Assembly: GCA_028873075.1 (NCBI GenBank) | Contig: JAGWND010000005.1 | Span: forward strand, 1 to 38,480 | Source of the DNA: Bacteroidota bacterium | Lineage (GTDB): Bacteria > Bacteroidota > Ignavibacteria > UBA10030 > UBA8401 | Reading direction: 5' to 3' | Length of the DNA stretch: 38,480 nucleotides | Shown: positions 12,812 to 36,156 of the stretch, one piece after another | Position numbering within the stretch: the first letter of the stretch is position 1 | Layout: every line of letters starts with the position of its first letter | Translations under genes and position numbers: made by a program | Notes under the pieces: generated by a model | Database searches by the model: none | The model's input: the letters and a program-made list of their open reading frames with translations, nothing else | What the model was told of the DNA's origin: nothing

Positions 12812-12845
12812 CACGAGTTTACCGGAGTAGTTACCATTTTTGAAC

Positions 12846-14093
12846 ATGAAAAAATCTGATCGCTATTTTCAGGAAGCGCTGAAATATATTCCGTGGGGAA
12901 CGCAGACGAATGCGAAGCGGCATTTCCCGTTTTTCGATGAAGCGATGCCGAAATTTATCGAGCGCGGGAAAGGCTGCCGCATCTGGGATATGGACGGGAA
13001 GGAATATATTGACTTTCGTCTTGCACTCGGTCCCGTCATACTCGGCTACTGCTACGATGAAGTTGATGACGCTGTGCGCGCCCAGATGAAGAAGGGCGTT
13101 CTCTTCAGCATGGCAAGCCCGATCGAGCTTGAGCTTGCAAAAAAAACCTGTGAAATAGCTCCGGCGGTCGAAATGGTTCGCTTTATGAAAACGGGCGAAG
13201 AGGCGAATCTTTGCAACGTGCGCATCGCACGCGCGTACACAAAACGCGACATGATTTTGACAAGCGGTTATCACGGCTATACCGATTGGTTTGCACTCGG
13301 CGACAGCCCGCACAACGGGGTTCCTTCCGCTCTTCGAGATTACGCGAAAGAAATTCCGTGGGGAAATCTTGAGCGCGCCGAAGAATTGATCGAGCAGTAC
13401 AACGAGCGCATCGCGTGTGTGCTGACAATTCCCTACGATCTGAACGAAGACACAAGCGGAACATACATCCGTCATCTCCGGACATTGACGCGGAAGTACG
13501 GGATCGTTCTCGTCTTCGATGAAGTGTGGACAGGATTTCGCGTTGCGCTCGGAGGAGCGCAGCAGTTGTTCAATGTGGAAGCGGACCTCGTCAGTTATGC
13601 GAAGGCGATAGCGAACGGCTATCCGCTTTCTGCATACGGCGGAAAACGAAAATATATGAAACAATTGAATCACATTAAATTGACGACGACGTACGCGGGC
13701 GAAACTTTTTCCATTGCGGCGGCAATTGCAACGCTGGATATCATGCAGCGCGAGAAGGTGCACGGCCATCTCAACGCAATGGGAAAACGCTTGATGAACG
13801 GCTTCGATTCGATTGTGAAAGAATTAGGCGTTGAAGGACATGCCGCCGGACTCCCGGCAGCGGCGTTTATTAAATTTCATTCATCGGACAGGTTTTACGA
13901 TGCACGGCTTGAGTATTTGTGGCATCGTGAATTATTTCGTGAAGGCGTGTTCGTGATGCTGCGGTGGTTTCTCTGTTACTCGCACAGCCAGAAGGATATT
14001 GATGATGCATTGGAAAAAGCGCGGAAAGCGCTGCGCCGCGCGTTGGAGGCAGAGTTGAAAGAACGGAAGACTGTAACACCATTCTATTGGTGA
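12846..14093 (+). CDS. Class III PLP aminotransferase (glutamate-1-semialdehyde aminomutase-like)
   Basis: KTGEEANLCNVRIARAYT, ILTSGYHGYTDW, VFDEVWTGFR, and PLP-Lys region LVSYAKAIANGYPLSAYGG. Confidence 0.93.
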   Translation: MKKSDRYFQEALKYIPWGTQTNAKRHFPFFDEAMPKFIERGKGCRIWDMDGKEYIDFRLALGPVILGYCYDEVDDAVRAQMKKGVLFSMASPIELELAKKTCEIAPAVEMVRFMKTGEEANLCNVRIARAYTKRDMILTSGYHGYTDWFALGDSPHNGVPSALRDYAKEIPWGNLERAEELIEQYNERIACVLTIPYDLNEDTSGTYIRHLRTLTRKYGIVLVFDEVWTGFRVALGGAQQLFNVEADLVSYAKAIANGYPLSAYGGKRKYMKQLNHIKLTTTYAGETFSIAAAIATLDIMQREKVHGHLNAMGKRLMNGFDSIVKELGVEGHAAGLPAAAFIKFHSSDRFYDARLEYLWHRELFREGVFVMLRWFLCYSHSQKDIDDALEKARKALRRALEAELKERKTVTPFYW

Positions 14094-14096
14094 ACA

Positions 14097-15719
14097 ATGA
14101 GTGAACGAATCTACTTCGATTGTTATGCGATGATCGGCAAGCGCGGACCTAAAGATGTTGAAGCGCAGTACGAAACCGAAGTGCTGCTCGAAGAAATGGA
14201 GTGGTGTGGAATTCACGCGGCTCTCATTGCACATTCAACGGCGAAGGAGTACGACCCGATGTACGGCAACCGGATGCTGACGCGCGAGCTGAGGAAAAGT
14301 CCGCGGTTGTACGGCGCTTGGGCAGTAATGCCGCATCACACCGGCGAAATGCCCGCGCCGAAAGAGCTGGTCGAGGAGATGCGCGACAATAATATTCGCG
14401 CTGCAGCGATGTACCCGCGCGCACACCGCTATCCGTTTTCTGTGGATTTTTGCGGCGGCTTATTGCGCGAGTTGGAAGAAAATGAAATCCTGCTGATGGT
14501 GCAAGGCGGATATATGTACAACCCGGATGTCCTTGAGCCGACAAACCAAGTCCTGCTCACAGACTTGGATGCTGTATTGACACAGTTTCCCCAGCTCAAT
14601 GTCGTTTTACTGGGGTCGCGCTGGGAGTCTACACGGTATGTGTATCCGCTCATGAAAAAGCATTCTCGTCTTCACGTCGAGTTGTCGAATCACCAAGGCA
14701 ACCGTGCGATGGAAACGTATGCTGAATGGTTTGGTGATAGACGTGTGTTGTTCGGAACCGGTGCTCTTGAAAAATCTCCCGGTGCGGCAAAAGCGTTTGT
14801 GGATTATTGTTTTCTGAACGACGACCAGAAACGACACATTGCAGCACTCAATCTTATGCATCTCTTGAACATTGAGAAGCCTCCGGAGCCGTACGGAACA
14901 CAGGACGATGCCGATTTGATTCTTGCTCGCGCTAAAGAAGGAAAACCGCTGAGCGATATTCTTGTCATTGATTCCCACGCTCACATTGCTCACGACAATG
15001 CAGGTGGAATCGGATTTGTGCACTCTCCGTTCTCCGATGACAAAAGTATGTACGAGCGCGCACAGGCAATGGGCATTGATGCAATGTGCATCAGCGGGTT
15101 TCTTGCCGTGTGGACCGATTACGAGGAAGGCAACATGATTGTTGTCAATGCGATGAAGCGTTTTCCGAATTTCTATCACGGTTATGCTGCGCTTCAGCCG
15201 CAGTATGTCAAAGATTGGGAAAAAGAATTTCGTCTCTGGTACGGAACGTACAAAATGGAAGGAATGAAACCGTACCACCCGAGAACATTTTTATCGTACA
15301 ACGATCCGCTCTACACGCCGTGGTACGAGTTCGGCAATCGTATCAACGCATACTGTCTCGTGCATCCGTCCCCCAATCTTGTTGCGGAGATGAATGACAT
15401 TGCGCCGAAATATCCGAACATCGCGTTTATCCTCGCACATACAGGGGCGTCATTTCACGATGCGCGCCTCGGCATTGAAGTCGCTCTCCGTAATCCGAAT
15501 GTTTATCTTGAAATCACGCTGACATCGGTAACGTACGGCGTGATTGAATTTCTCGTGAAGCATGTCGGAGCCGAGCGTGTCTTGTTCGGCACCGACCAGC
15601 CGATGCGCGACCCGATTCCGCAATTCGGATGGATGGCGTACTCGCATTGCTCATTTGAAGAAAAGAAAAAAATGTTCGGTGAAAATATGCAGAAGATCAT
15701 TCAGCGAGTTCGAAGATGA
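14097..15719 (+). CDS. Tandem amidohydrolase-2 domain protein; N-terminal copy lacks metal ligands
   Basis: C-terminal half has VIDSHAHIAH, LVHPSP, ILAHTGAS, LFGTDQP. N-terminal half aligns but reads YFDCYAMIG, MVQGGYM, LLGSRWES, LFGTGAL. Confidence 0.85.
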   Translation: MSERIYFDCYAMIGKRGPKDVEAQYETEVLLEEMEWCGIHAALIAHSTAKEYDPMYGNRMLTRELRKSPRLYGAWAVMPHHTGEMPAPKELVEEMRDNNIRAAAMYPRAHRYPFSVDFCGGLLRELEENEILLMVQGGYMYNPDVLEPTNQVLLTDLDAVLTQFPQLNVVLLGSRWESTRYVYPLMKKHSRLHVELSNHQGNRAMETYAEWFGDRRVLFGTGALEKSPGAAKAFVDYCFLNDDQKRHIAALNLMHLLNIEKPPEPYGTQDDADLILARAKEGKPLSDILVIDSHAHIAHDNAGGIGFVHSPFSDDKSMYERAQAMGIDAMCISGFLAVWTDYEEGNMIVVNAMKRFPNFYHGYAALQPQYVKDWEKEFRLWYGTYKMEGMKPYHPRTFLSYNDPLYTPWYEFGNRINAYCLVHPSPNLVAEMNDIAPKYPNIAFILAHTGASFHDARLGIEVALRNPNVYLEITLTSVTYGVIEFLVKHVGAERVLFGTDQPMRDPIPQFGWMAYSHCSFEEKKKMFGENMQKIIQRVRR

Positions 15720-16699
15720 AGATGCCGTCGAAAATTTTTGCGGTGAGCATTGCTTTCACACTCGCTGCATCAGCGCAGGATACGCTCTACATGTCTGTGC
15801 TCAGTTCGCACGCATATCGCATAGGCGCGCAGGATAATCCAATTGTCGGATTGTTCGGCAGCGCCGACGGTGGAAATTCGTGGCACCACGAAGGATGGAT
15901 AAACTACATCCGCGTGTTTTACACTGAAGCCGCTTCCGACGGAACGCTCTGGTCCGCGTGCGGCAACGGCGTTCTGCGTTCAACAGACGCCGGCGCTTCG
16001 TGGAAAATTACAACCGGCTGGCAAATCACCGAGGCGCTGAAAGTGCGTGCGGATAATTCCGATCCTTCGGTTGTTTACGCGGCAACCGCGTACGGAATTT
16101 TCAAAACGACCGATCACGGAGCAACGTGGAAGAAAAAAAGCCGCGGCTTGCCCGGCAGATTTACGGCGGATGTTATTATTGATGAACAGAATCACGCGCA
16201 CCTTTTCGCAGCAACAGAAGAAGGCGTGTATGTGAGCCGCGATGCCGGCGGTCATTGGATGCTGTGCGGCTTGAAAGGAAAAGGAATTCGGATGCTTTTG
16301 CAGGAGCAGAACAATCCGCAAACACTGTGGGCGGGAACAGAAGATGACGGCCTGCTCAAATCGGAAAATGACGGAGCAACGTGGAAGCCGATGAACAACG
16401 GACTCAGCGCAAAAACCGTTTACGCGCTTGCGAGTAATCCCTCGGACTCACGATTGCTCTTTGCCGGAACGCACGGCGGCGGTGTGTTCCGCTCGCGCGA
16501 CGGAGGAGAACACTGGACGCAGCAAAACAACGGTCTGACGAATCTCGTTGTTCATGCATTGCTCGTCCTTCCATCGCATCCGCAATCCGTGTTTGCCGGA
16601 ACGCTGAACGGCGGACTTTTCAGAAGCGATGACGAAGGGAATTCATGGAAATTTGTTTGTCAGCCGGAAGCACAAGTATGGGGGCTTTCAGTGCGATGA
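15716..16699 (+). CDS. Secreted Asp-box (BNR/sialidase-like) beta-propeller protein, copy 1
   Basis: Sec signal MKMPSKIFAVSIAFTLAASA; seven SxDxGxxW-like boxes (SADGGNSW, STDAGASW, TTDHGATW, SRDAGGHW, SENDGATW, SRDGGEHW, SDDEGNSW). Confidence 0.85.
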   Translation: MKMPSKIFAVSIAFTLAASAQDTLYMSVLSSHAYRIGAQDNPIVGLFGSADGGNSWHHEGWINYIRVFYTEAASDGTLWSACGNGVLRSTDAGASWKITTGWQITEALKVRADNSDPSVVYAATAYGIFKTTDHGATWKKKSRGLPGRFTADVIIDEQNHAHLFAATEEGVYVSRDAGGHWMLCGLKGKGIRMLLQEQNNPQTLWAGTEDDGLLKSENDGATWKPMNNGLSAKTVYALASNPSDSRLLFAGTHGGGVFRSRDGGEHWTQQNNGLTNLVVHALLVLPSHPQSVFAGTLNGGLFRSDDEGNSWKFVCQPEAQVWGLSVR

Positions 16700-18522
16700 A
16701 AAGGAACGTTATGATATATGCGGTGTTGCTTATTTTTCCCGCTGTGAACGCAATGGCAGGCACATTTGAGGAGCGGAAAGCAGAATTGCTGCAGGAGGCA
16801 AGCAATGAGCGCGGACGGAATATTTTTCTCGTTGCGGCGAAGATTGCAACGCATCACGACGAGCGTTATGCGCTGACGATGCTCGATTCATTGATTAACG
16901 ACCAACAAATCGGCGGAATGTTTTACTCGTATCAAATGATCGCGACATATCTTTATCTTCAAAGCGGGCTTCCCGATTCGCTGAAGGAGAAAATCCGCAC
17001 TGCGTACCGCACGCGCACAATGTACCGCGGCGATACGGAAAATCACTGGGTAGCATATTACACCGGCTTGTACCTTGCCGCGCAGACATGGCACGATGAG
17101 GACGGCTCGCACTGGTTCAACGGAAAAAGCTCGAAAGAAAATTTTGATGAAGCAAAAGACTGGCTGAACGAATGGATGCGTATCACAACGACAATCGGTC
17201 AGGGGGAATTCGATTCGCCGACGTACTTCATCGTGTTCATTACGCCGATGATGGCGCTCCAGCAATTTGCGCTCGACAACACGATGAAGAAGAAAGCGGA
17301 GATGATGGCGGATTATCTCTTTGCAGATTTCGCCGTGGAGAACTTGAACGGCAATTACTGCGGCGCGCACAGCCGCGATTATCCCGAAGATATTGTGAAT
17401 CCGCTGCGCGCGCCAAATGTGCCGTGGGCGTGGCTTTATTTCGGTACGCCGAAAAACGCACCGTGGCTGCCGACGCTCGGACTTCCGCGCCAACCGGTGT
17501 TCCGTCATCCGACATCCTCGAATGAGAGCCTTGGCTATGCGTGGGAAGTAGTATTCGGCGCGCTCAGTTCGTACCGCTTGCCGGAAATTATTTTTCACGT
17601 CGCCACCGACCGAAGCGTGCCGTATGTTGACAAAGAACAAAAGCGTGTTCGCAACATCATTCGCTTTGGAAAAGAAATGAATCCGCAGGTGTACAAATAC
17701 ACGTACATGACCGATCAGTATGCGCTCGGCTCGATCCAAGGCGGAATTCTTCAGCCGATCCAGCAGCACACGTGGGATGTAACGTATGTGTCGGACAAGC
17801 CGGGCAACACTCTTTTCACGCTCAATCCGTTTTATTCCGGAAAAGAGCTTGCAATGTTTTTCCCTGAAGAACAAAAATTTCTTACCGACGAAGTGAACCG
17901 TTACCATAAAGTATACACCGATCCGAATAAATGGAACTCGAGTTCTCCCTACGAACAAACGTTTCAGTGCAAGAACGCGATCATCGTTCTCTATAATATT
18001 ACACCGACAGCTCATCACCGTCAGGTAGACGGCTTCTTCTCGAAAAATCTTGATGAAAGAATTACGCTGGCAAATCGCTGGATTCTCTGCAAAGCGGGAA
18101 AAACATATATCGCATTCTTCCCTTTGAAACAGTACGAATGGATCGAAGAGCCGAACGACTGGCGCTGGAGAAGCTATGATGTGAAAAACGGCGTTGTTGT
18201 TGAAGTCGGACGTGAAAGCGAATACGGTTCTTTTGAAGCATTCAGGAAAACATTCAGCGCGGCAGCAATTGACGCAAAAGATTTCGACAAAACGCTGACT
18301 GTTCGCTACACAACGCACATGGGGGACACGATGCAATTCACGTACGGCGGGGCAAGAATTCTGAACGGTCATACAGTTGATTTTTCTCATTACAAGTTGT
18401 TTGACAGTCCGTTTCTTCACAGCGATATCGGCAGCGGCGTGTTGACGATGACGTACAAGAACATGACGCGGATTCTCGACTTCAATGCTGTTGCAATACG
18501 AAACGGAATGGTGACGAAATGA
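16696..18522 (+). CDS. Secreted alpha/alpha-toroid, polysaccharide-lyase-like protein of unassigned family, copy 1
   Basis: Sec signal MKRNVMIYAVLLIFPAVNAMA; helical N-terminal half with RGDTENHW and TTIGQGEFDSP, then a beta-rich C-terminal half. Start at 16696 (ATGA overlap). Confidence 0.6.
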   Translation: MKRNVMIYAVLLIFPAVNAMAGTFEERKAELLQEASNERGRNIFLVAAKIATHHDERYALTMLDSLINDQQIGGMFYSYQMIATYLYLQSGLPDSLKEKIRTAYRTRTMYRGDTENHWVAYYTGLYLAAQTWHDEDGSHWFNGKSSKENFDEAKDWLNEWMRITTTIGQGEFDSPTYFIVFITPMMALQQFALDNTMKKKAEMMADYLFADFAVENLNGNYCGAHSRDYPEDIVNPLRAPNVPWAWLYFGTPKNAPWLPTLGLPRQPVFRHPTSSNESLGYAWEVVFGALSSYRLPEIIFHVATDRSVPYVDKEQKRVRNIIRFGKEMNPQVYKYTYMTDQYALGSIQGGILQPIQQHTWDVTYVSDKPGNTLFTLNPFYSGKELAMFFPEEQKFLTDEVNRYHKVYTDPNKWNSSSPYEQTFQCKNAIIVLYNITPTAHHRQVDGFFSKNLDERITLANRWILCKAGKTYIAFFPLKQYEWIEEPNDWRWRSYDVKNGVVVEVGRESEYGSFEAFRKTFSAAAIDAKDFDKTLTVRYTTHMGDTMQFTYGGARILNGHTVDFSHYKLFDSPFLHSDIGSGVLTMTYKNMTRILDFNAVAIRNGMVTK

Positions 18523-19517
18523 AATTTCTCGCAGTGTTGTTTCTTTCTCTTTTCACTGAAGCGCATGTTGTTGCTCAGCAAACGGCCGTGTACGCAGCGG
18601 TGCTTTCGACAAAGTCATTTGTTGTCGGAGGTAAGAATCCGATGACGGGGCTTTTTTTTCAACGCCCGTCGGACGACACGCTGTGGCAGCACAGCGGCGC
18701 TCCAAACGTTCGTGTCTCCGGTGTTGCGGTGAAGGTTGAACATCCCCTTGGGGGAAAGCTTCTTTATCTTGCCGCGGGAAACGGCGTTCACCGTTCGACT
18801 GACGGCGGAGCGACATGGAAAATTGTAACCGATTGGCGCGTGACCGAAGTTCAATGGGTAACGATTGATCCGCGCAATTCGAGCGTCGTGTATATCGCAA
18901 CCCCGTACGGCGTTTTCAAATCGAGCGACGGCGGAAATGCATGGAAAGAAATGAGCCGCGGTTTGGAGGCATCGCATTTCATTTCCTCGATTATAGTAGA
19001 TGTTGTGAACTCGAACATCGTGTACTGTTCAACAGAAGACGGCGCGTACATCAGCCGCGATGCAGCCGCGACTTGGCAGCGAATGGGGCTTTCCGTCGGA
19101 GGCGTGCGCGTGATTGCACAAGACCCGGACAACCCGAAGACGCTCGCCGTCGGAACGGAGGACAATGGAATTTACATCTCCCACGATGGAGGTGAGGTGT
19201 GGATGAAAAAAGAATCCGGCGTTGATCATTCTACTTTTTATACCGTTGTTTTTGATCCGCATGATTCACGCATTCTCTATGCCGGCGGTTATGTGACCGG
19301 CGTTTACAAATCTACCGACAGCGGCGAAAGCTGGCGGCGAACGAATGACGGACTGACGTGTCTTAACGTTCATTCCATTGCTGTAGATCCGGCAAACAGC
19401 AATCGCATTTATGCGGCGTCAATGGGTGATGGCGTGTTTCGTTCGGATGACGGCGGAGCGCACTGGAAATTTGCCGGCTTGAGAAATGCTGAAGTGTGGA
19501 GATTAGCGATACAGTAA
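18519..19517 (+). CDS. Secreted Asp-box beta-propeller protein, copy 2
   Basis: Paralogue of 15716-16699. Boxes STDGGATW, SSDGGNAW, SRDAAATW, SHDGGEVW, STDSGESW, SDDGGAHW plus a degenerate first box; Sec signal MKFLAVLFLSLFTEAHVVAQ. Confidence 0.85.
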   Translation: MKFLAVLFLSLFTEAHVVAQQTAVYAAVLSTKSFVVGGKNPMTGLFFQRPSDDTLWQHSGAPNVRVSGVAVKVEHPLGGKLLYLAAGNGVHRSTDGGATWKIVTDWRVTEVQWVTIDPRNSSVVYIATPYGVFKSSDGGNAWKEMSRGLEASHFISSIIVDVVNSNIVYCSTEDGAYISRDAAATWQRMGLSVGGVRVIAQDPDNPKTLAVGTEDNGIYISHDGGEVWMKKESGVDHSTFYTVVFDPHDSRILYAGGYVTGVYKSTDSGESWRRTNDGLTCLNVHSIAVDPANSNRIYAASMGDGVFRSDDGGAHWKFAGLRNAEVWRLAIQ

Positions 19518-19563
19518 ACAAAGCGATGCCACTGTCATTGTCCAGATAGATTGACGGAGTATT

Positions 19564-19591
19564 CAATGTTCAATTTTCAATTCTCAATTAT
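19564..19591. repeat. Four tandem 7-mers (CAATGTT CAATTTT CAATTCT CAATTAT) running into a start codon
   Basis: Read directly; the consensus is CAAT(N)(N)T and the last unit overlaps the ATG at 19590. Confidence 0.75.
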
Positions 19592-21365
19592 GAAACATTA
19601 CGCTGGAGTGTTTCCTCTTTTGTTGATAGCGTCATTCTGTTCGCTCTATTCCGAACATCAATCGCGGGACGAATATCTGAAAGCGTACGAGCAGCGGGCG
19701 CGGTATGAAACAATTCTCTACGATACAATGCAGAATCCGGGAATTTACGGGGCAACGGTTCGCTATGCTGAAAACCGGGACCTTGCTGTTGCCGACAGCT
19801 TGTTGTTGAACTGCAGCCAGATCAAACATCCTCAAGGCGATATGTTTTGGATGTACCCGGTCATCGGCACGTATCTTCACGGCAAAGGAAAAATGTCCGC
19901 TGCCGCGGCAGCAGCTGTCCGCAACGCGTGGAAAACATACGCACCGTACCGCGGCGATACGGAAAATCATTGGGCGATGTATTACGCATCACTGTATCTT
20001 GCGGCAGAGCAGTGGCGCAATCTTCCCGGCTCGGAATGGTTCAACGGAAAATCTTCGGAAGAAAATCTGAACGACGCGAAAGAATATCTTATTCATTGGA
20101 TTCATATCACGACAACGATCGGGCAAGGGGAATTTGATTCTCCCGATTATTTGCCGGAGTACATGAATGCGATGACGCTGCTCGCAGAGTTTGCGAAAGA
20201 CCCCGCGATGAAACAGCGCGGAAAGATGATGCTCGATTACTTATTGGCAGATTTCGCCGTGGATGAGCTTGGCGGCGAATACATCGGCGGCTTCAGCAGA
20301 ATTTACCAGCCGGCGGTGTACAAGCCGTGGCTTTCCGGTGCATCAGCATTTGCCTATTTGTATTTCGGAACAGGCGGCCCCGTGCAATCCGGCTGGACGT
20401 TGCTTTCTGCATTGTCGGATTACCGGCTGCCGCAAATCATTTATGACATCGCGACTGATCGTTCGCATCCGTTCGTTAATAAAGAACGGAAGCGCATCCG
20501 CAATATTCTTCGTTACCGGAAAGAAATGAATCCGCCTGTGTACAAATATTCGTACATCACGAAAGACTACGGCATCGGTTCGCTGCAAGGCGGCATCCTC
20601 CAGCCGATTCAGCAGCACACATGGGGCGTCAGGTACCTCTACGGAAAACCGACAAGCACGATCTTCGGCTTGCACCCGTATTGGTCCGGCTACGAGCTTG
20701 CGATGTTTTTTCCGGAAGAACGGAAGACGATGATTGCAGATGTTGTCAGCTCGAAAGGAACGTACAACAAAGATGATAAATGGACGAGCAGTTCACCGTA
20801 TGAGCGGACGTTCCAGCACAAGAACACTGTCATTGTGCTGTACGACATTTCCCCGGGAACAACGTCGGAACATATTGACGGATTCTTCCCGAAAAATTTG
20901 CAGAGGCGCATTGTTGATCCATCCGGTTGGATTATGTGCAAGGCGGGAGATACATACATCGGCTGGTATCCTTTGCAGGAATATCGGTGGATGCAGTTAA
21001 AAGATGACGAAGATAATTTCCGCCTTCGCAGTTACAAGCTGCAGAACGGTTATGTAGTCGAAGTTCGCTCGAAAGACGAGGTCGGCTCGTTTGAGAAATT
21101 TGGGATGATGCTGCGGAAACATCTTCCGACAGCGGTTTTGAAGCCCGGTGCTGTCTCTGTGAAGTACACAACGCTGCGCGGTGACAGAATGTTTTTTGCA
21201 TTTCCCCGTACGCGTATGTTGAATGGCAAGGAGGTAAATCTTGGCAGCTACAAATTGTTCGACAGCCCGTTCGCGCATGCCGATGTCGGAAGCGAAAAGC
21301 TCACGCTGACGTACAAGAACAGAAAAATGGTGCTGGATTTTAAGAAGCTTTCAATAACAAAATGA
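19590..21365 (+). CDS. Secreted alpha/alpha-toroid, polysaccharide-lyase-like protein of unassigned family, copy 2
   Basis: Strong colinear similarity to 16696-18522: YRGDTENHW, ITTTIGQGEFDSP, QGGILQPIQQHTW, SGYELAMFFPEE, SSSPYERTFQ, YKLFDSPFAH. Signal-like N-terminus. Confidence 0.6.
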   Translation: MKHYAGVFPLLLIASFCSLYSEHQSRDEYLKAYEQRARYETILYDTMQNPGIYGATVRYAENRDLAVADSLLLNCSQIKHPQGDMFWMYPVIGTYLHGKGKMSAAAAAAVRNAWKTYAPYRGDTENHWAMYYASLYLAAEQWRNLPGSEWFNGKSSEENLNDAKEYLIHWIHITTTIGQGEFDSPDYLPEYMNAMTLLAEFAKDPAMKQRGKMMLDYLLADFAVDELGGEYIGGFSRIYQPAVYKPWLSGASAFAYLYFGTGGPVQSGWTLLSALSDYRLPQIIYDIATDRSHPFVNKERKRIRNILRYRKEMNPPVYKYSYITKDYGIGSLQGGILQPIQQHTWGVRYLYGKPTSTIFGLHPYWSGYELAMFFPEERKTMIADVVSSKGTYNKDDKWTSSSPYERTFQHKNTVIVLYDISPGTTSEHIDGFFPKNLQRRIVDPSGWIMCKAGDTYIGWYPLQEYRWMQLKDDEDNFRLRSYKLQNGYVVEVRSKDEVGSFEKFGMMLRKHLPTAVLKPGAVSVKYTTLRGDRMFFAFPRTRMLNGKEVNLGSYKLFDSPFAHADVGSEKLTLTYKNRKMVLDFKKLSITK

Positions 21366-22303
21366 AACAAACGCAAACATTCGATGTGGCGGTTGCAGGA
21401 CTTGCCGTCGTTGATGTTCTCGGCTCGCCGATCAATGTGAGGCGGCTTCCGAACGCCGGCTCACTGCGGATGATCGAGTCGCTTGTTCTCACGACAGGCG
21501 GCAATGTTTCGAATGTCGGTATTGATCTTGCAAAGTTAGGATTTCGCGTTGCCGCCATCACGCGCATTGGAAAAGACGATCTCGGCGAATTCTTGTTAGA
21601 ACGGTACCGATCCCATAACATTGACTGCAGCGGTATCACGTTCGATGAAAGGCTGCAGACATCCGGAACGATTGTCTGCGTTGATAAAAGCGGAGAGCGG
21701 ACGTTTCTTCATTCGCGCGGATGTTTGAAACGGTTCCGCGCTCGCGATATTCTTGCCCGTCGTTCCGTGCTAAAGAGCGCGAAAATTATTGCTGTCGGTT
21801 ATCTCGGTTTGTTGCCGGAAATCGAACCTCACTTTCCTTTGTTGTTCGGAACAATCAAGCAGGAAGCTTCCGCGCAAATTTTCCTCGACACCGGCGGTGT
21901 CCCGAGGGTTTCATCGGGCACATTGAAAAAAATTCTTCCGCTTGTTGATTTTTTTATTCCAAGCTATGAAGAAGCGCGCCTTCTTTCGGGAAGAGTAAAG
22001 CCCGATGAAATCGTTCACTTTTTTCGCGAGTGCGGTGCATCTGGCGTTGTCGGTGTCAAGTTAGGGAAAGACGGCTGCTATATTACAGAAAACGGGCGCG
22101 CCGAGCACATTCCTGCCGTTCGTGCCCGCCGTGTCGTGGACACGACAGGCGCGGGAGATGCGTTCGCTGCCGGATTTCTTGCCGGTGTGCTGCGCGGGAA
22201 AAACCCGTTCGATGCTGCCCGGCTTGGCGCTTCGGTTGCGGCAAGCTGCGTTACTTCGTTCGGCGCCTCGACTGGAATTCAGCCGCTGAGAAAATATCTT
22301 TAG
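21362..22303 (+). CDS. PfkB-family carbohydrate kinase
   Basis: TTGGNVSNVGIDLAKLG and VVDTTGAGDAFAAGFLAG signatures. Confidence 0.93.
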   Translation: MKQTQTFDVAVAGLAVVDVLGSPINVRRLPNAGSLRMIESLVLTTGGNVSNVGIDLAKLGFRVAAITRIGKDDLGEFLLERYRSHNIDCSGITFDERLQTSGTIVCVDKSGERTFLHSRGCLKRFRARDILARRSVLKSAKIIAVGYLGLLPEIEPHFPLLFGTIKQEASAQIFLDTGGVPRVSSGTLKKILPLVDFFIPSYEEARLLSGRVKPDEIVHFFRECGASGVVGVKLGKDGCYITENGRAEHIPAVRARRVVDTTGAGDAFAAGFLAGVLRGKNPFDAARLGASVAASCVTSFGASTGIQPLRKYL

Positions 22304-22353: not shown

Positions 22354-25071
22354 ATGAAACCAATCTATCATATCGTTTCGCACTCGCACTGGGACCGTGA
22401 ATGGTACAAGCCATTCGAGGAGTTTCGTGCGATGCTTGTTCAGATGGTGGACGATGTACTCGATCTTCTCAACCGCGATTCTTCCTTTCGCAGTTTCACA
22501 CTCGATGGTCAAACGGTTGTGGTCGAAGATTATCTTGAAATCAAGCCCGAGCGTGCGGAAGAGATCCGCAGGCTCGTAACTGAAGGCAGATTGTTTATCG
22601 GGCCGTGGTATGTTCTTCCCGACGAATTTTTAGTGAGCGGGGAGGCGATCGTGCGCAATCTTCTTCGAGGCATTGAGGTCGCCCGCACTTTCGGCGGAGA
22701 AATGAAGGTCGGCTATCTTCCCGATTCGTTCGGACACATTGCGATGATGCCGGCAATTCTGAAAGGCTTCAACATTGATGCGGCACTGCTCTACCGCGGT
22801 TTTGGCGGTGAGCCGGATCAGCAAACGTCGGAGTATTGGTGGAAGTCACCCGACGGCACACGGTGTTTAATGGAACACCTGTACAGCAACGGCTACAGTG
22901 CCGGTTATTTCCATCAAGAAACAGACGCACAGGCAATAGAGCGGTTTGGAGCAATAAAAAAAGAGCTTGATGCACGTGCCGCTACTTCACACCGTTTGCT
23001 GATGAACGGAGGTGATCATCATTGGCCCGATCCGAAGCTTCCACAGACGCTCGAACTGCTACGGAAGAATTTTGACGGAGAATTCGCACACAGCAACATT
23101 CCGGATTTTTTTTCAACGGTAAAAAAAGAAATGGGCAGAATTCCCGGTACAGGCCGCATCGGAGAAATCAGCGGTGAGCTTCGGTTCGGCTACCGATATG
23201 CCTTTGTGGTGTTAAGCGGCGTTTACTCGAGCCGCATGTATCTGAAGCAGGAAAACTGGAAATGTGAGAACCTGCTTCAGCGCTATGTTGAGCCGCTCAA
23301 TGTTTTTGCCTTGTGTGAAGGAGGAATTTCACAGAATGCGCTCATCCGTGAGGCGTGGAAAAATCTTTTGCATAATCATCCGCACGACAGTATATGCGGA
23401 TGCAGTGTTGATCCCGTGCACAGCGAGATGATGACACGCTTTGCCGCTGCCGAACAAATCGGACGGTCTGCCATTGAGCGGTGCGGCGAACAATTGATTC
23501 CGTCGGATGACCGTGCTTTCAAAGACGACCGATGTATTTTCTTTTTTAATCCGTCGCCGTTTAACCGCAGCGATTGTGCCCAGGCCGAAATCAAGTTCTA
23601 CGTGCAGGACGTGGTGGTCGGATTGAATCCGGATGTGAAAGTTGCACCAAAGCTTCCGCCCGTACGCGGTTTTACCTTGCTCAACGAACAAGGAAAGGAG
23701 ATACCCTATCAGATTCTTCACCACGAGGAAGGGTACGATATTACCTACTCGCGCTACAATTATCCGAAGCAGATCAGGGCGGAAAAATTTACGCTTCTTG
23801 TTGATGCGCAGGATGTTCCTGCCATAGGCTTTGGCGGTTACACGATTGAAAAGACGAAAAAATTCCCGCGATGGAAGACAAAAATTAAATGCGGGCGAAA
23901 TTTTATCGAAAATGAGCATCTTCGTGTCGAAGTAAGCCGCGGCGGCGAAATCGCGCTCCATGACAAAGAGACGGGAGAAATATTTTCTAAGCTTCATGTG
24001 TTCGAGGATTCGGGCGACGTCGGCGATGAATACAATTATTCCTATCCGGCAAAAGATCGCTGGATTTATTCCGGCAAGGCGAAAGCAAACATTGAAGCGG
24101 TGGAGCGTGGACCGCTTCGTGCAGCGTTGCGGGTTACGGTGACGATGAATGTTCCGGTTTCTGCTGCTGCCAATCGCCGCTCGCGGGGCACGGCACTCAC
24201 AAAAATTTCAATTTCGACTGCCGTGCGCTTATCGCATCATTCGCGTTCTGTTGAATTTGAAACAACGGTGAACAACACCGCAAAGGATCATCGCCTCAGA
24301 GTTCTTTTCCCTTCGGGAATTGAGACCAACACCGTCTATGCCGACTCGCAATTCAGCGTTGTTGAACGTAAGCAACAGCAGTACGACGTCTCGCAGTTCA
24401 CAATCGAGCATCCGGCAAAAGTTGCGCCGATGCAGCGTTTTGTAACGGTGAAAGGCAAAACGAGAGCATTGACGATCATATCGTACGGCTTGCCCGAATA
24501 CGAATTAAAGTCGGACGGGAAAGGCACAATTGCGCTGACGCTTTTGCGCTGCGTGGGATTATTGGCAGGAGAGGATCTCATTACGCGCCCCGGCGGCAAA
24601 GGGGGCTGGCACAACGAAACACCGGATGCTCAGTGTCTCGGCACGCATACATTTCGGTACGCAATACTTCCTCATTCTCCGGAGGAGACAAAAATGTTCG
24701 GGGAAATCAACCGTGAAGCAGAGCGGCTTCATCTTCCGTTTTTTTCGTTTCGCCGAAAAAACTCCTGCAATACATTCCCGAAGGCAGGGCTGCTATCGGT
24801 TTCTCCTCCGCAGCTTGTGTTGAGCGCCGTCAAAGAGTCTGATGACGGCTCCTCGCTTATCGTGCGCCTTTACAATCCGTTTGCTGAAAGGGCGGAAGGA
24901 ACAATTCAGTTCGGAGTGCCGGTGAAATCTGTGTTTCGTTCGCAGTTAAACGAAGAGACGAAAGAAGAATTGGCAGTGAATGAGAGGAGGCGTGTTCAGG
25001 TCTCTGTAGTCCCGTACGATATTCTCACGTTGAAAGTAGTGCCGGACCATGAGAAAAAAATTAGCGGATGA
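22354..25071 (+). CDS. Glycoside hydrolase family 38 alpha-mannosidase
   Basis: HIVSHSHWDREWYKPFEEFR, GYLPDSFGHIAMMP (nucleophile Asp) and HNHPHDSICGCSVDPVH. No signal peptide. Confidence 0.93.
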   Translation: MKPIYHIVSHSHWDREWYKPFEEFRAMLVQMVDDVLDLLNRDSSFRSFTLDGQTVVVEDYLEIKPERAEEIRRLVTEGRLFIGPWYVLPDEFLVSGEAIVRNLLRGIEVARTFGGEMKVGYLPDSFGHIAMMPAILKGFNIDAALLYRGFGGEPDQQTSEYWWKSPDGTRCLMEHLYSNGYSAGYFHQETDAQAIERFGAIKKELDARAATSHRLLMNGGDHHWPDPKLPQTLELLRKNFDGEFAHSNIPDFFSTVKKEMGRIPGTGRIGEISGELRFGYRYAFVVLSGVYSSRMYLKQENWKCENLLQRYVEPLNVFALCEGGISQNALIREAWKNLLHNHPHDSICGCSVDPVHSEMMTRFAAAEQIGRSAIERCGEQLIPSDDRAFKDDRCIFFFNPSPFNRSDCAQAEIKFYVQDVVVGLNPDVKVAPKLPPVRGFTLLNEQGKEIPYQILHHEEGYDITYSRYNYPKQIRAEKFTLLVDAQDVPAIGFGGYTIEKTKKFPRWKTKIKCGRNFIENEHLRVEVSRGGEIALHDKETGEIFSKLHVFEDSGDVGDEYNYSYPAKDRWIYSGKAKANIEAVERGPLRAALRVTVTMNVPVSAAANRRSRGTALTKISISTAVRLSHHSRSVEFETTVNNTAKDHRLRVLFPSGIETNTVYADSQFSVVERKQQQYDVSQFTIEHPAKVAPMQRFVTVKGKTRALTIISYGLPEYELKSDGKGTIALTLLRCVGLLAGEDLITRPGGKGGWHNETPDAQCLGTHTFRYAILPHSPEETKMFGEINREAERLHLPFFSFRRKNSCNTFPKAGLLSVSPPQLVLSAVKESDDGSSLIVRLYNPFAERAEGTIQFGVPVKSVFRSQLNEETKEELAVNERRRVQVSVVPYDILTLKVVPDHEKKISG

Positions 25072-29843: not shown

Positions 29844-30947
29844 GTGAACATTGAACGAATCACGCTTACACATGTCCGCATTCCGCTGGTTGAACCGTTC
29901 ACAATCAGCAACGGCAGCGTGAGAGAAAAAGATGGAATCATCGTCCGCGTTTTCAGCGACGGGCTTGTTGGTGTCGGCGAGGCTTCGCCGATGGCGGGTT
30001 CGTTTTATTCGGAGGAAACGCCGGAGTCAACTTGGGGGTGTTTGGTGCACAGGATTATTCCGATGCTGTTTGCTTCAAAGCCGGTGTCGCTGGATGATGT
30101 CAATATTCTTTTTCACAAAATTCACGGCGACACATTTGCGAAAGCAGGAATCGAAACAGCGTTGCGGGACATCGAAGCGCAAAAACAAGATAGTCCGCTG
30201 TACAAGCTGCTTGGCGGAAAACGCCGCGATGTTGAATCTGGATTGGCAGTTGGCATCTATTCCACAGTTGACCAGCTTGTTTCTACCATTGAAAGGTACC
30301 TGCCGGAAGGGTACAAGCGCGTGAAGATAAAAATTCAGCCCGGATGGGATGCAACGCCGCTGCGCGCTGTGAAGAAATGTTTTGGCAACATTCCGCTCAT
30401 GGTTGATGCAAACGGTGCATACTCGCACGACGATCTTGAGCATCTCTGTTCGCTCGATGAATTTGAATTGATGATGATCGAACAACCATTTTCAAAAGAC
30501 GATTTTGATGCTCATGCGCAGTTGCAGGCGATGATGCGAACGCCGATCTGCTTGGATGAAGGGGCGTGCGATTGTTCGGCGATTGAGAAAGCAGCGTCGA
30601 AAAAGAGCTGTCGCATCGTCAACATAAAAATTCAGCGCGTTGGAGGACTGACTCAGGCGGAAGCAATGCACGCTGTGTGTGCGGAAAAAGCAATCCCTGT
30701 TTGGGCAGGCACAATGCCGGAATTGGGCGTCGGCGCCGCGCAAACACTCCACCTTGCCACGCTCGATAATTTTCTTTTTCCGACCGATGTTGAGTCGTCG
30801 CGGCGGTGGTTCGTAGACGACATCATAGAGCCGATGCTTGAGGTACACAACGGTGTGATTGAAATTCCCGACGGCATCGGCAACTGTTTTCAACTTAATG
30901 AGCGGAAGGTTTTGCAATACAAAGTTCGTGAAGAAATTTTTCAATGA
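29844..30947 (+). CDS. Enolase-superfamily (mandelate racemase/muconate lactonizing enzyme group) protein
   Basis: KRVKIKI, LMVDANGAY, MIEQPF, ICLDEGA, VNIKIQRVGGLTQA. GTG start. Confidence 0.92.
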   Translation: MNIERITLTHVRIPLVEPFTISNGSVREKDGIIVRVFSDGLVGVGEASPMAGSFYSEETPESTWGCLVHRIIPMLFASKPVSLDDVNILFHKIHGDTFAKAGIETALRDIEAQKQDSPLYKLLGGKRRDVESGLAVGIYSTVDQLVSTIERYLPEGYKRVKIKIQPGWDATPLRAVKKCFGNIPLMVDANGAYSHDDLEHLCSLDEFELMMIEQPFSKDDFDAHAQLQAMMRTPICLDEGACDCSAIEKAASKKSCRIVNIKIQRVGGLTQAEAMHAVCAEKAIPVWAGTMPELGVGAAQTLHLATLDNFLFPTDVESSRRWFVDDIIEPMLEVHNGVIEIPDGIGNCFQLNERKVLQYKVREEIFQ

Positions 30948-31951
30948 ATCTTTCAACGTCATTTGTCGGTTTGAATTTCCAAAGCCCGGTCATGATTGCT
31001 TCGGGTCCTGCAAGCCACGATGTCAACCAGATAACACTTGCGCAGCAGCAGCATGTCGGCGCAGTGGTGCTGAAGACCGTTTGCTCGGACAAGTATGAAC
31101 ATATGCGTTATTGGCCCCGCCCGCGTTACAAACTTCTTGACTGGGATAAACAGATCGGAGGACGGTCGAAATATTTCACGCTCTATTCGTACGAACAAGG
31201 ATACAGTGGCACACTGGAGGATTACTGGAAATTTATTGCGGAGTGCAAACGGCATTCCACTGTGCCGGTCTTTGGCAGCATTTTTGCCGATGTTGCGGGC
31301 GATTGGAAAATGCTTGCAGCGAATGTCGAGGCAAGTGGTGCCGATGCCGTAGAGCTTGACATCTCTTCTCCGCATAAGCCCGGTAGCCTCGATTTTGAAA
31401 CGACGTTCACCGCAGCCATTGCGGCAGTTGTGAAAGCGGTGAAGATACCCGTGATCGTGAAGCTCGCGGCAAGCGCAGATGTTGTTCAGCAATCGCTTGT
31501 TGCACAGGAGTGCGGTGCCTCGGCGGTAACTCTCTGCAACCGCATCCGCGGTTTTGATGTGGATATTGAGACGCAGCGTCCGATTCTTCACGGAAATTTT
31601 GCGGGAGTCGGCGGACCATGGGCGAAGTACTACACGTTCCGTCATGTTGCGGAAGCCGCGCAGTCAGTTGCTGTTCCCATCAGCGCAACCGGCGGAGCGA
31701 TGACTGGCAGCGATATCATAAAGTACATTCTGTTAGGCGCAACTACCGTGCAGGTGCTTTCAGTTGTGATGGTCAACGGATGGGATTCTATCGCAGCGAT
31801 GCACAAGGAAATTGCAGAGTACATGCAAAGGAAAAAAATTCTTTCGCTCGATGAAATCCGCGGCAGAGCATTGAAGGCTATGGCGCATCCGGATGAAATT
31901 GTTCGCTGGTCGGGCGAGCCGAAATCTGGGCCTCGCAATGTTTGGAAGTAA
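30944..31951 (+). CDS. Dihydroorotate dehydrogenase / PreA-like flavoprotein
   Basis: FQSPVMIASGPAS, VLKTVCSDKYEHM, VELDISSPHKPG, PVIVKLAAS, PISATGGAMTGSDIIKYILLGATTVQV. Confidence 0.88.
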   Translation: MNLSTSFVGLNFQSPVMIASGPASHDVNQITLAQQQHVGAVVLKTVCSDKYEHMRYWPRPRYKLLDWDKQIGGRSKYFTLYSYEQGYSGTLEDYWKFIAECKRHSTVPVFGSIFADVAGDWKMLAANVEASGADAVELDISSPHKPGSLDFETTFTAAIAAVVKAVKIPVIVKLAASADVVQQSLVAQECGASAVTLCNRIRGFDVDIETQRPILHGNFAGVGGPWAKYYTFRHVAEAAQSVAVPISATGGAMTGSDIIKYILLGATTVQVLSVVMVNGWDSIAAMHKEIAEYMQRKKILSLDEIRGRALKAMAHPDEIVRWSGEPKSGPRNVWK

Positions 31952-32264
31952 TTTGAAATATCCGGGGCTGAACCCGATTCCGCCGCCGTTTGCACATGAA
32001 CATCCGCCGGTCGCGGAGGTCATTGAAGAAAAATGTATTGCGTGCGATCGTTGTCCGCCGCTTTGCTTTTTTGATTCCATTGTCATGGAAAATCGTCCGC
32101 AACATCCGTTCGGCAGAACGGCTGTCGTCATTCAAGAGAATTGTACAGGCTGCGGGTTATGTTTTGAAGCGTGCCCTGTTGATGCAATCGTCTGGGTAGC
32201 AGATGTCGCCGGTCGCAGCGATGCGAAGACAGCATCGTCGTCGGTAGAGGACACAGATTTATGA
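31938..32264 (+). CDS. 2x[4Fe-4S] ferredoxin-type protein
   Basis: CIACDRCPPLC and CTGCGLCFEACP. Start overlaps the end of the DHOD-like gene by 14 nt. Confidence 0.88.
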   Translation: MFGSNLKYPGLNPIPPPFAHEHPPVAEVIEEKCIACDRCPPLCFFDSIVMENRPQHPFGRTAVVIQENCTGCGLCFEACPVDAIVWVADVAGRSDAKTASSSVEDTDL

Positions 32265-32887
32265 CTGTCATTGATCTCACACACCCGATTACGGACAACA
32301 TGCCGGTCTATTTCCCTTGGCATCCCGCAACGGAAATTGTTCAAACCGCAACGTATGCTCATGATCGCTGCGAAGTGCGCCGCCTGGCTATCGGCACGCA
32401 CAGCGGCACGCACATAGATGCCCCGAGCCACATCCTTGAAGGAACGCCGGCGCTTGATAAGTATGATCCGAATCTGTGGTGTATGAAAGCGCAGGTGTTA
32501 GATTTCACGCCGCGCCAGCCTCGTCAAGAAATTATGAAAGAAGAAGTGCAAGAGAAATTAAAACAGCGCGGCATCGGCGTGATCATCAAGGCGGGATGGG
32601 ATGTTCATTTTGGGAAAAACGATTATTACAAAACCTATCCGCCGATTTCAAACGCGGCGGCGGAATTTTTTTTAGCGATGAACGTTCCTCTTGTTGCTGC
32701 CGATACGCCCTTCACACTTGACGTGCATTATCTTCTTTTGAGGAGAGGGATCCCGCTCGTCACAAACCTTAACAACACAGCGCGGTTAAAAGAAGGCATC
32801 GTCACGCTCATCTCTGCGCCGCTGCTTATCGCAGGGGCAGACGGCGCGCCCGCCCGTGTTTTTGCTCTTGTTGAAAAGGAAGGATAA
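32261..32887 (+). CDS. Cyclase family protein (kynurenine formamidase-like metal hydrolase)
   Basis: DLTHPITDNMPVYFPWHP and GTHSGTHIDAPSHILEG (HxGTHxDxPxH) signature. Confidence 0.92.
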   Translation: MTVIDLTHPITDNMPVYFPWHPATEIVQTATYAHDRCEVRRLAIGTHSGTHIDAPSHILEGTPALDKYDPNLWCMKAQVLDFTPRQPRQEIMKEEVQEKLKQRGIGVIIKAGWDVHFGKNDYYKTYPPISNAAAEFFLAMNVPLVAADTPFTLDVHYLLLRRGIPLVTNLNNTARLKEGIVTLISAPLLIAGADGAPARVFALVEKEG

Positions 32888-32891
32888 ACGT

Positions 32892-34067
32892 GTGAACGCT
32901 GTCGCTGAACTTCTTGCCGATCTGGTGGCAATTCCAAGCATGAATCCGATGGGGCGGAGTCGAAACGGAATGTCGAATGCCTCGCCGCTTTTCGGCGGGG
33001 AATATTCCGAGCAAAATCTTGCCGATTATCTTGCTTCCTGTTTACGCCGACATCACATCGATGTTGAAATACAGGCATGTGCGACTCGCCTTGAAGGTGA
33101 GTCGCACATCATGCGCCCGAACGTTCTCGGACGCATTGACGTGAACGCCCCGCGCACGTTGTTGCTTGATGCGCACATGGATACGGTTCAAGCCGAGAAC
33201 ATGCCGACACCGTTTACTCCTGTTGTTAAGGAGGGGAAGCTGTACGGCAGAGGTGCGTGCGATACGAAAGGATCAATTGCGGCGTTTCTTTCCGCTGTTA
33301 CCGAAACACTTCGTAACAACCAATTCACGTGGAATGTGTTGCTGTTGTTTACTTCTGATGAAGAATATGGTTTCACGGGAGCGCGCGAGGCGATGCAGCG
33401 CAGATTGAAAGCGGATGCCGGTATCACCGGTGAACCGACGCAGCTTCGCATTATTCGTGCGCACAAAGGCGTTGTACGCTGGCACATCCGTACGCGCGGC
33501 GTTGCGGCCCACGCGGCATATCCCGAGCGCGGCGAGAATGCGATTTATACAATGGCCTCCGTTGTATCACGCCTTCAACGGTATGCGGAGGAATTGCTTC
33601 ACTTGACGCCGCACCCTGTTCTTGGAACTCCAACGCTGAGTGTCGGAGTCATTGAAGGCGGCGAGGCGGTGAACGTTGTTCCGGCTTCATGCCGGATTGA
33701 AATAGACCGCCGCTCGCTTCCCGGCGAGACAACGGAAAGCATTCTTCAGCCTGTGCATGCATTACTGCGCGACCTTCCGGCAGTGGACGATGAACCCCCG
33801 TATCTTGTTGCTGCCGGAATGGAGGTTGCAGAACATGCAGAAGTTGTTCGAAGATTGTCTGAAGCAATTCATTCTGTTACAGGCGATGTGAATATCGAAC
33901 CGGCGAGCTATGCTACAAACGCAGGAACATTCAATGCTGCGGGAATTCCGACTGTTGTTTTTGGTCCCGGGAATATCGCCCAAGCCCATACGAATGCGGA
34001 ATTTATTGAACTCAACGAAGTGGAGCAAGCTGCTGCCATTATCAAACATTTGTTGACAACGCACTAA
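32892..34067 (+). CDS. M20-family metallopeptidase / deacylase (ArgE/DapE-like)
   Basis: LLLDAHMDTV, YGRGACDTKGSIAAFLSA, TSDEEYGFTGA, GEPT, AHTNAEFIEL. GTG start. Confidence 0.92.
   Translation: MNAVAELLADLVAIPSMNPMGRSRNGMSNASPLFGGEYSEQNLADYLASCLRRHHIDVEIQACATRLEGESHIMRPNVLGRIDVNAPRTLLLDAHMDTVQAENMPTPFTPVVKEGKLYGRGACDTKGSIAAFLSAVTETLRNNQFTWNVLLLFTSDEEYGFTGAREAMQRRLKADAGITGEPTQLRIIRAHKGVVRWHIRTRGVAAHAAYPERGENAIYTMASVVSRLQRYAEELLHLTPHPVLGTPTLSVGVIEGGEAVNVVPASCRIEIDRRSLPGETTESILQPVHALLRDLPAVDDEPPYLVAAGMEVAEHAEVVRRLSEAIHSVTGDVNIEPASYATNAGTFNAAGIPTVVFGPGNIAQAHTNAEFIELNEVEQAAAIIKHLLTTH
33077..33109. repeat. 33-nt palindromic element inside the M20 gene
   Basis: ATGTGCGACTCGCC (33077-33090), loop TTGAA, GGTGAGTCGCACAT (33096-33109); 14-bp stem with one G.T pair. 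Confidence 0.8.
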
Positions 34068-34929: not shown

Positions 34930-36096
34930 ATGGCGTCTACATCAACTGGACAATCCTCGCAACGGAGAATGAAAGCGATAACCCCGCGCGAACGGATACT
35001 CACCGCAATGCGGCGCGGAATTCCGGACCGCGTTCCTGTTATTCCCGACATTTCGAACATGGTTCCCGTGCGCCTCACGAGAAAACCGTTCTGGGATATT
35101 TATTTGCACGAAGACCCGCCGTTAGACGAGGCGTATCTTCATGCGGTGCGGTACTTCGGAATGGATGGATGGTATGTGTACGACAATGCAACGATGAGCG
35201 AAGAGCCGAAGTGGCACACACACATCGTCGAATCATTGGCAGATGAACTGCACGTGAGGAAATGGATCGAGACGCCGTTCGGCACACTTGAACAAATGAT
35301 CTGCTATCCTGTTGACAACCCTCCGTGGGAAATGAGCGGGATGATCAAAGATATCAAGGAAGATCTTCCAAAGCTCAGGTGGTACATGGAGCAACGGCCT
35401 CTCGACGTGCTGTTCCGGAATCGGCAGAAAATCGGCGACGCGGGAATTTACGGCATCGCGATTGAAACGTTCATGGGATTCTGGGTCTGGGTGCGGGACG
35501 GCGGCTCAATGCAGGCGATTCAGGATTTCTTTCAATTCCCGGAATTGATGCCGGAAGTTCACAAATTCTATTGCGACTTTGTAGAAAATGCGGCGCACCG
35601 CATCGTGAAAGAAAAGCCTGATGAAATTCTTATTGCAGGCTCCTCGTCCTCACTCAGCCTCAGCTCTCCCAAGATTTATAAGGAGTTCGATCTCCCTGTA
35701 ATACAGCTCATCGGCTCGCTGTGCAAAGAGGAAGGTATTATTTGTCATCAGCACACATGCGGCAGGTCGCGGCAAATCGTGGAGATCAATTACCACGAAA
35801 CCGATGTCAACGTGATGGAACCGCTTGAGCGCCCTCCCGGCGGCGATGTTGACCTTGCTGAGGTGAAAAAAAAATTCGGCGATAAGTTTTGTCTCAAAGG
35901 GAATGTCAACACGTTCGAAACAATGTTGAATGGAAGCGTGAAGGATGTCGAGCGCGAAGCGAAAGCTTGTATTGATGCAGCGGCTGCTGGAGGCGGGTTC
36001 ATTCTCTCGACGGGCGACCAGTGTGGCCGCGACACACCTGACGAGAATCTCTTTGCACTTATCGAGGTCGCAAAAACGTACGGAGCATATTTATGA
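34930..36096 (+). CDS. Uroporphyrinogen decarboxylase-family (MtaA/CmuA-like) methyltransferase component
   Basis: TPRERILTAMRRGIPDRVPVIP; Zn-type HxC...C motif (HQHTCGRS ... STGDQCGRDTP). Adjacent to the corrinoid protein and MtaB-like genes. Confidence 0.85.
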   Translation: MASTSTGQSSQRRMKAITPRERILTAMRRGIPDRVPVIPDISNMVPVRLTRKPFWDIYLHEDPPLDEAYLHAVRYFGMDGWYVYDNATMSEEPKWHTHIVESLADELHVRKWIETPFGTLEQMICYPVDNPPWEMSGMIKDIKEDLPKLRWYMEQRPLDVLFRNRQKIGDAGIYGIAIETFMGFWVWVRDGGSMQAIQDFFQFPELMPEVHKFYCDFVENAAHRIVKEKPDEILIAGSSSSLSLSSPKIYKEFDLPVIQLIGSLCKEEGIICHQHTCGRSRQIVEINYHETDVNVMEPLERPPGGDVDLAEVKKKFGDKFCLKGNVNTFETMLNGSVKDVEREAKACIDAAAAGGGFILSTGDQCGRDTPDENLFALIEVAKTYGAYL

Positions 36097-36111
36097 AGCA
36101 ATGTCTCACGG

Positions 36112-36124
36112 CGGCTTCAAGCCG
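36112..36124. repeat. Intercistronic hairpin CGGCT-TCA-AGCCG
   Basis: Exact 5-bp stem with 3-nt loop between the UroD-family and corrinoid-protein genes. Confidence 0.45.
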
Positions 36125-36156
36125 TCCGGCATTTAGCTATCACGAAGGAATAAACT

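Follow-up and report, generated by a model that had tools for sequence, protein, structure and literature searches.

Polysaccharide lyases (PLs) of families PL35, PL33, PL12, PL17 and PL15 use as catalytic residues an Asn (or His), a Tyr located ∼53–57 residues later, and a His located 130–166 residues after the Tyr (PMC12088678 Table 4; PMC11848413). Published spacings for the two intervals are 54/155 for the PL35 enzyme GAGase II, 53/153 for BtPL33, 57/155 for PL17 and 54/165 for the PL15 enzyme exoHep (PMC12088678, PMC11848413). Here we describe a pair of adjacent genes, present twice in tandem, in a 38,480-nucleotide stretch of DNA from an uncultured Ignavibacteria member of the Bacteroidota (GenBank assembly GCA_028873075.1, contig JAGWND010000005.1, positions 1 to 38,480; hereafter, the window). 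One gene of each pair encodes an Asp-box beta-propeller (BNR), and the other a lyase-like protein (TOR) with an (alpha/alpha) toroid and a beta-sandwich. The TOR model has the same two-domain fold as the toroid and beta-sheet lyases of PL33, PL35, PL17 and PL15 (also PL8, PL12, PL21 and PL39). It resembles these lyases further in the order and spacing of an Asn/His-Tyr-His triple and in a signal-like N-terminus. Unlike them, TOR has its own invariant motifs (YRGDTENHW and GQGEFDSPxY) and a separate propeller gene alongside, and it shares no similarity with them that is detectable by phmmer or profile searches.

The propeller has known counterparts in Vps10/sortilin, GH74, Ycf48 and DAIP, with which it shares seven blades, SxDxGxxW boxes, and significant Pfam and PDB matches. 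It differs from these in being a small dedicated secreted protein encoded beside TOR, with one propeller type per TOR subfamily. The locus as a whole is reminiscent of the polysaccharide utilization loci of Bacteroidota, having co-directional secreted glycan-active proteins, a sugar kinase, aldolases and a glycosidase. However, no SusC/SusD pair is present among the window genes scanned with Pfam, and related clusters carry an SSF symporter instead. No description of the BNR–TOR pair was found in the set of papers that was searched. On balance, we lean toward a reading in which each pair would form a secreted two-part module, composed of a lyase-like enzyme and its dedicated propeller, within a conserved sugar-catabolism cluster.

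A tandem of two diverged gene pairs

The unit BNR1–TOR1 (15716–18522) is followed directly by BNR2–TOR2 (18519–21365), with all four genes on the plus strand. BNR1 (15716–16699) encodes 327 amino acids, TOR1 (16696–18522) 608, BNR2 (18519–19517) 332 and TOR2 (19590–21365) 591. The two TOR proteins are 48% identical over 561 columns (E = 0), and the two propellers are 39% identical over 333 columns (E = 9e-83). A preliminary description made from the letters of the window alone had proposed that the same gene pair occurs twice in the same order, which these coordinates and identities confirm. The three 4-nt ATGA start–stop overlaps that it listed were verified at 16696, 18519 and 21362. We find a fourth at 15716, between an amidohydrolase gene and BNR1, and a 72-nt gap without overlap between BNR2 and TOR2.

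All four proteins also carry the signal-like N-termini ascribed to them, with hydrophobic peaks of 2.2–2.5 versus 0.2–1.5 in most neighbors. A hydrophobic N-terminal stretch is found in ∼95% of 86 TOR proteins and 92% of 90 BNR proteins, and in 0% of the neighboring GH38, aminotransferase and amidohydrolase proteins, as called by a simple hydropathy rule that is crude and flags PfkB kinases too.

TOR1 belongs to a clade, T1, that crosses several phyla and is well supported (14 rows with an SH-aLRT value of 100, plus one long branch), and TOR2 belongs to a separate old clade, T2. These clades, together with the 48% and 39% identities, rule out a recent or assembly duplication, in agreement with the preliminary description. 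Propeller type tracks toroid clade, such that B1 propellers accompany T1 in 14 of 15 pairs and B2 propellers accompany T2 in 45 of 46. Given this matching and the spread of T1 across phyla, the tandem arrangement traces to an old duplication of a pair. In most tandem relatives, though not in the window, TOR1 and BNR2 are separated by a third propeller gene. Three loci (L033, L037 and L039) have the second pair only, plus a third propeller.

TOR resembles polysaccharide lyases in fold

Neither TOR1 nor TOR2 has a match in Pfam, NCBIfam or the PDB sequences, and none of 66 TOR family members has a meaningful match in Pfam. A profile of these 66 sequences retrieved nothing from the PDB chains up to E = 10, and single-sequence phmmer searches likewise found none. 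To TOR2 we applied AlphaFold2 with the 66-sequence alignment, which gave a model of high confidence (pLDDT 93.2, pTM 0.92) in which a helical toroid precedes a beta-sandwich. This is the arrangement of the superfamily, an (alpha/alpha)n toroid and then an antiparallel beta-sheet domain. A Foldseek search of the PDB with the model yielded 26 matches at E ≤ 1e-3, every one of which is a polysaccharide lyase and nearly all of which have a probability near 1. The matched proteins are from PL33, PL17, PL35 (GAGases), PL15 and PL8, and include a chondroitinase. Thus, the model and the search bear out the toroid and lyase-like character originally assigned to these proteins, which TOR1 is expected to share on the basis of its identity to TOR2.

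Because sequence homology to solved members of PL33, PL35, PL17 and PL15 was looked for and not found, we place TOR in no existing PL family. The most fitting description, given the model, is that of a new family within the toroid/beta-sandwich lyase superfamily that comes with its own propeller, where “new” is judged against Pfam, NCBIfam and PDB sequences. A sequence-level link between TOR and heparinase II/III was dropped when profile comparisons with the heparinase-like family and with a ∼796-residue family proved empty.

Four very distant relatives of TOR (L132, L133, L134 and L135; ∼20% identity) retain a GxxE...Y motif, and no propeller neighbor was found for them. They do not connect TOR to known families, as Pfam gave no informative match for any of them and the PDB none for L134. 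These proteins possibly point to a wider, uncatalogued lyase-like superfamily.

A predicted lyase active site

In TOR2, residues N126/H127, Y187 and H343 (19965–19970, 20148–20150 and 20616–20618, respectively) form the only conserved N/H–Y–H triple with lyase-like spacing. The spacing is 61/156, with a first interval slightly longer than in the known lyase families, and it fits the assignment of these residues as the predicted equivalent of the lyase Asn/His–Tyr–His triad. The predicted counterparts in TOR1 are N116–H117 in the motif YRGDTENHW (17041–17046), Y177 in GQGEFDSPTY (17224–17226) and H358 of the beta-sandwich in QPIQQHTW (17767–17769).

Among the 66 TOR sequences, Y187 is conserved in 66 and H343 in 60, and both lie outside the peptides GDTENHW and TIGQGEFD that were used to collect the loci. 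N126 and H127 are likewise conserved in 66 of 66, although this motif is partly conserved through selection because loci were picked by GDTENHW. Relatives found by hidden Markov model (HMM) searches rather than by motif, when aligned with the window copies, retain Y187 and R237 in 10 of 10 rows, even at ∼20% identity, and N126 in nearly every row.

Clade-typical differences between T1 and T2 occur at residue 186, beside Y187, and at residue 238, between R237 and Y239, and the loop after the R237/Y239 motif is longer in T1 than in T2. The placement of these differences beside predicted catalytic residues suggests that the two copies may differ in subsite preference and hence in specificity. An extra segment in copy 1 had been reported to include SRDYPEDI, but this peptide is not extra: it has a counterpart in copy 2, SRIYQPAV, with which it shares a conserved Arg/Tyr in the alignment. 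TOR1 does contain a net insertion of ∼25 residues after it (about residues 258–284), which is partly common to other T1 proteins.

The propeller and its possible roles

Both propellers match the Pfam models Sortilin-Vps10 (E = 7.5e-18 for BNR1 and 8.2e-22 for BNR2) and BNR (5.9e-10 for BNR1). They show the repeated SxDxGxxW boxes, one per blade, and the fold of Asp-box beta-propellers. The count of seven Asp boxes, initially given for both copies, holds for BNR1, whereas in BNR2 the first box is degenerate and one of the other six is imperfect. PDB relatives by sequence and fold are GH74, DAIP, Ycf48 and a putative BNR glycosyl hydrolase, with GH74 and DAIP among the sequence relatives of BNR2.

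Conceivably, the propeller has glycosidase or lyase activity of its own, in which case TOR and BNR would be independent enzymes of one pathway with no need for contact. The nearest solved relatives, which are GH74 xyloglucanases and the putative BNR glycosyl hydrolase, are in keeping with such a role. In the rhamnose-glucuronate lyase that acts on gum arabic, the propeller has seven blades. That enzyme represents a propeller-type PL family (PMC8377490), and so provides a precedent for lyase activity on this fold. Nonetheless, we regard an enzymatic propeller as unlikely. The single seven-bladed, ∼300-residue Asp-box architecture is shared by DAIP and Ycf48, which bind proteins and are both among the matches, and the propellers co-occur with TOR one-to-one by subfamily and are sometimes fused to it.

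BNR and TOR are paired across phyla

The pairing was counted in the window plus 75 other loci, drawn from several phyla, which together hold 90 TOR genes away from contig edges. A BNR gene is directly upstream of TOR in 69 of the 90 cases and on either side in 78. The preliminary description had named rare adjacency of homologues as the outcome that would count against a joint function, and these counts, along with two gene fusions, show the opposite. Labels of the TOR loci include Ignavibacteriae, Bacteroidota, KSB1, Calditrichota, Kryptoniota, Verrucomicrobia and Deferribacteres. Four further full-length TOR relatives, recovered by an HMM search of 297 genomes, all have a BNR neighbor.

One fusion (L042) joins BNR to TOR in frame, with a linker in place of the signal segment of the toroid protein, and the other (L056) joins TOR to BNR in frame without a second, internal signal peptide. 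Both are from metagenome assemblies, and thus rest on assembled sequence rather than on read-level proof. Two other apparent fusions (L128 and L129, with frames of 911 and 958 residues) were rejected, because the sequence added at the N-terminus runs over other genes that are read in a different frame. The recurrence of the pairing in several phyla, sometimes in fused form, indicates that BNR and TOR probably work together.

A TOR subgroup (L059, L060, L061 and L099) has no propeller neighbor and resides in another setting, where the neighbors are SDR, MtaA-like and Gfo proteins and families of ∼490 and ∼775 residues that have no Pfam match.

The adjacency could instead have arisen by hitch-hiking, if the two genes serve a common substrate and were carried along by horizontal transfer of one cluster without a specific functional link. 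The cluster is conserved in order as a whole, and the patchy distribution of TOR (10 of 60 relatives; 11 of 297 genomes in the phylum) suggests transfer or repeated loss. Tree distances also provide no distinction: across all 61 BNR–TOR pairs the mirror-tree correlation is high (rho of 0.83 versus a permuted maximum of 0.30), but within T2 it is no better for the partner propeller than for the PfkB kinase (values below). However, BNR–TOR adjacency outlasts the rest of the cluster, being kept in loci that share little else with that of the window (e.g., L085, L086, L092, L098, L103, L130 and L131), and the two genes fuse. We therefore consider hitch-hiking quite improbable.

A proposed two-part secreted module

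We return to the reading in which each pair is a secreted module of a lyase-like enzyme and a dedicated propeller. TOR would most likely cleave a uronic-acid-containing glycan by beta-elimination, with N126 (together with H127) neutralizing the carboxylate and with Y187 and H343 serving as base and acid. The propeller would be a non-catalytic partner that shares the extracytoplasmic compartment of TOR and most likely binds to TOR, to the glycan or to both. Following the ancient duplication of the pair, T1 and T2 probably came to cleave at different sites in one polymer or to act on its successive oligomers. The products would then feed into the cytoplasmic sugar catabolism whose genes flank the unit on both sides.

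Several observations weigh against this reading. Twelve TOR genes have no BNR neighbor. The TM-scores of the Foldseek matches are low (mostly 0.27–0.41) and the root-mean-square deviations are above 11 Å, such that the match between TOR2 and the lyases is at the level of fold; the poor superposition of the model may reflect domain shifts. Comparison of the TOR profile with the heparinase II/III-like family of the cluster gave nothing, and H343 is replaced by Gln in five TOR members. Within T2 (19 loci), the distance correlation of BNR2 with TOR2 is 0.52 versus 0.55 for TOR2 with PfkB. This is no better than the operon baseline and so provides no signal of co-evolution beyond shared ancestry; for this reason the mirror-tree result, including that for all pairs, was set aside and is not used as evidence. 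Finally, a model of the L042 fusion has a pTM of 0.65, in which both domains fold but their orientation and interface are not confident. The idea put forward initially, that the propeller and the catalytic-like protein act jointly outside the cytoplasm, is largely supported by adjacency, fold and signal-like N-termini.

A different chemistry on this scaffold, such as that of a uronate C5-epimerase, with the propeller still aiding polymer binding, seems very unlikely for TOR: the human dermatan sulfate epimerase DS-epi1 has the same fold and Tyr acid/base as these lyases (PMC11848413) and fold and triad cannot tell the two chemistries apart, but the locus looks catabolic (GH38, PfkB, aldolases and hydrolases) rather than biosynthetic, and every significant PDB match of the TOR2 model is a lyase.

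A more far-reaching form of the module proposal is possible, but we find it doubtful. TOR would then represent a new polysaccharide lyase family, found in several phyla, that functions only as a two-subunit enzyme clamped by a matched Asp-box propeller, with two specificities acting in sequence on one undescribed acidic glycan. If the module proposal is true, it offers a testable function for a widespread secreted family that is covered by no Pfam or NCBIfam model, and adds a lyase-type family having a protein partner. It would also mark a catabolic route for an acidic glycan that is shared by Ignavibacteria, KSB1, Calditrichota and Verrucomicrobia, the majority of which are known from metagenomes only.

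The surrounding gene cluster

The genes flanking the tandem, also on the plus strand, belong to a cluster that is conserved in different families of the order. Immediately upstream are a class III aminotransferase resembling glutamate-1-semialdehyde aminomutase (12840–14093), a conserved neighbor, and a two-domain amidohydrolase (14097–15719; Pfam Amidohydro_2, E = 5.4e-23). The latter has no PDB sequence relative at E ≤ 0.001. Downstream, a PfkB sugar kinase (21362–22303; Pfam PfkB, E = 7.3e-48) overlaps TOR2 by 4 nt and is the next gene after TOR2 in most Ignavibacteria-type relatives. It is followed by a GH38 alpha-mannosidase family enzyme without a signal peptide (22354–25071; Pfam Glyco_hydro_38N), which matches the NCBIfam mannosylglycerate hydrolase model at E = 3.4e-170, below its cut-off. 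The core of GH38, aminotransferase, amidohydrolase, BNR and TOR also occurs in loci labeled KSB1 (L082) and Deferribacteres (L088).

The conserved cluster encodes IclR, TIM-barrel, six-hairpin glycosidase-like, OYE, DUF4432, Gfo and heparinase II/III-like proteins. It also holds the aminotransferase, the amidohydrolase, a ∼796-residue protein, the BNR and TOR genes, PfkB and GH38, and it encodes aldolase, Gfo, MPI, DUF455, FAA hydrolase, MR_MLE and M20 proteins. The clusters of relatives carry a heparinase II/III-like protein in addition to the SSF transporter. This gene content, including GH38, PfkB, aldolase, Gfo and MPI, points to catabolism of a glycan.

The ∼796-residue family (15 loci; e.g., L034:2708–5095) has no Pfam match over the cut-off. 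Most relatives have it directly upstream of BNR, whereas the window has no copy. Further downstream in the window (29844–34067), genes for N-acylamino-acid racemase-like MR_MLE, DHOD-like, cyclase-like and M20 deacylase proteins lie in a row that is partly conserved, as in L042, L047 and L052. The same gene run closes at 34930–38162 with MtaA/URO-D-like, corrinoid and MtaB-like methanol methyltransferase proteins, which may make up an O-demethylation system linked to the sugar cluster.

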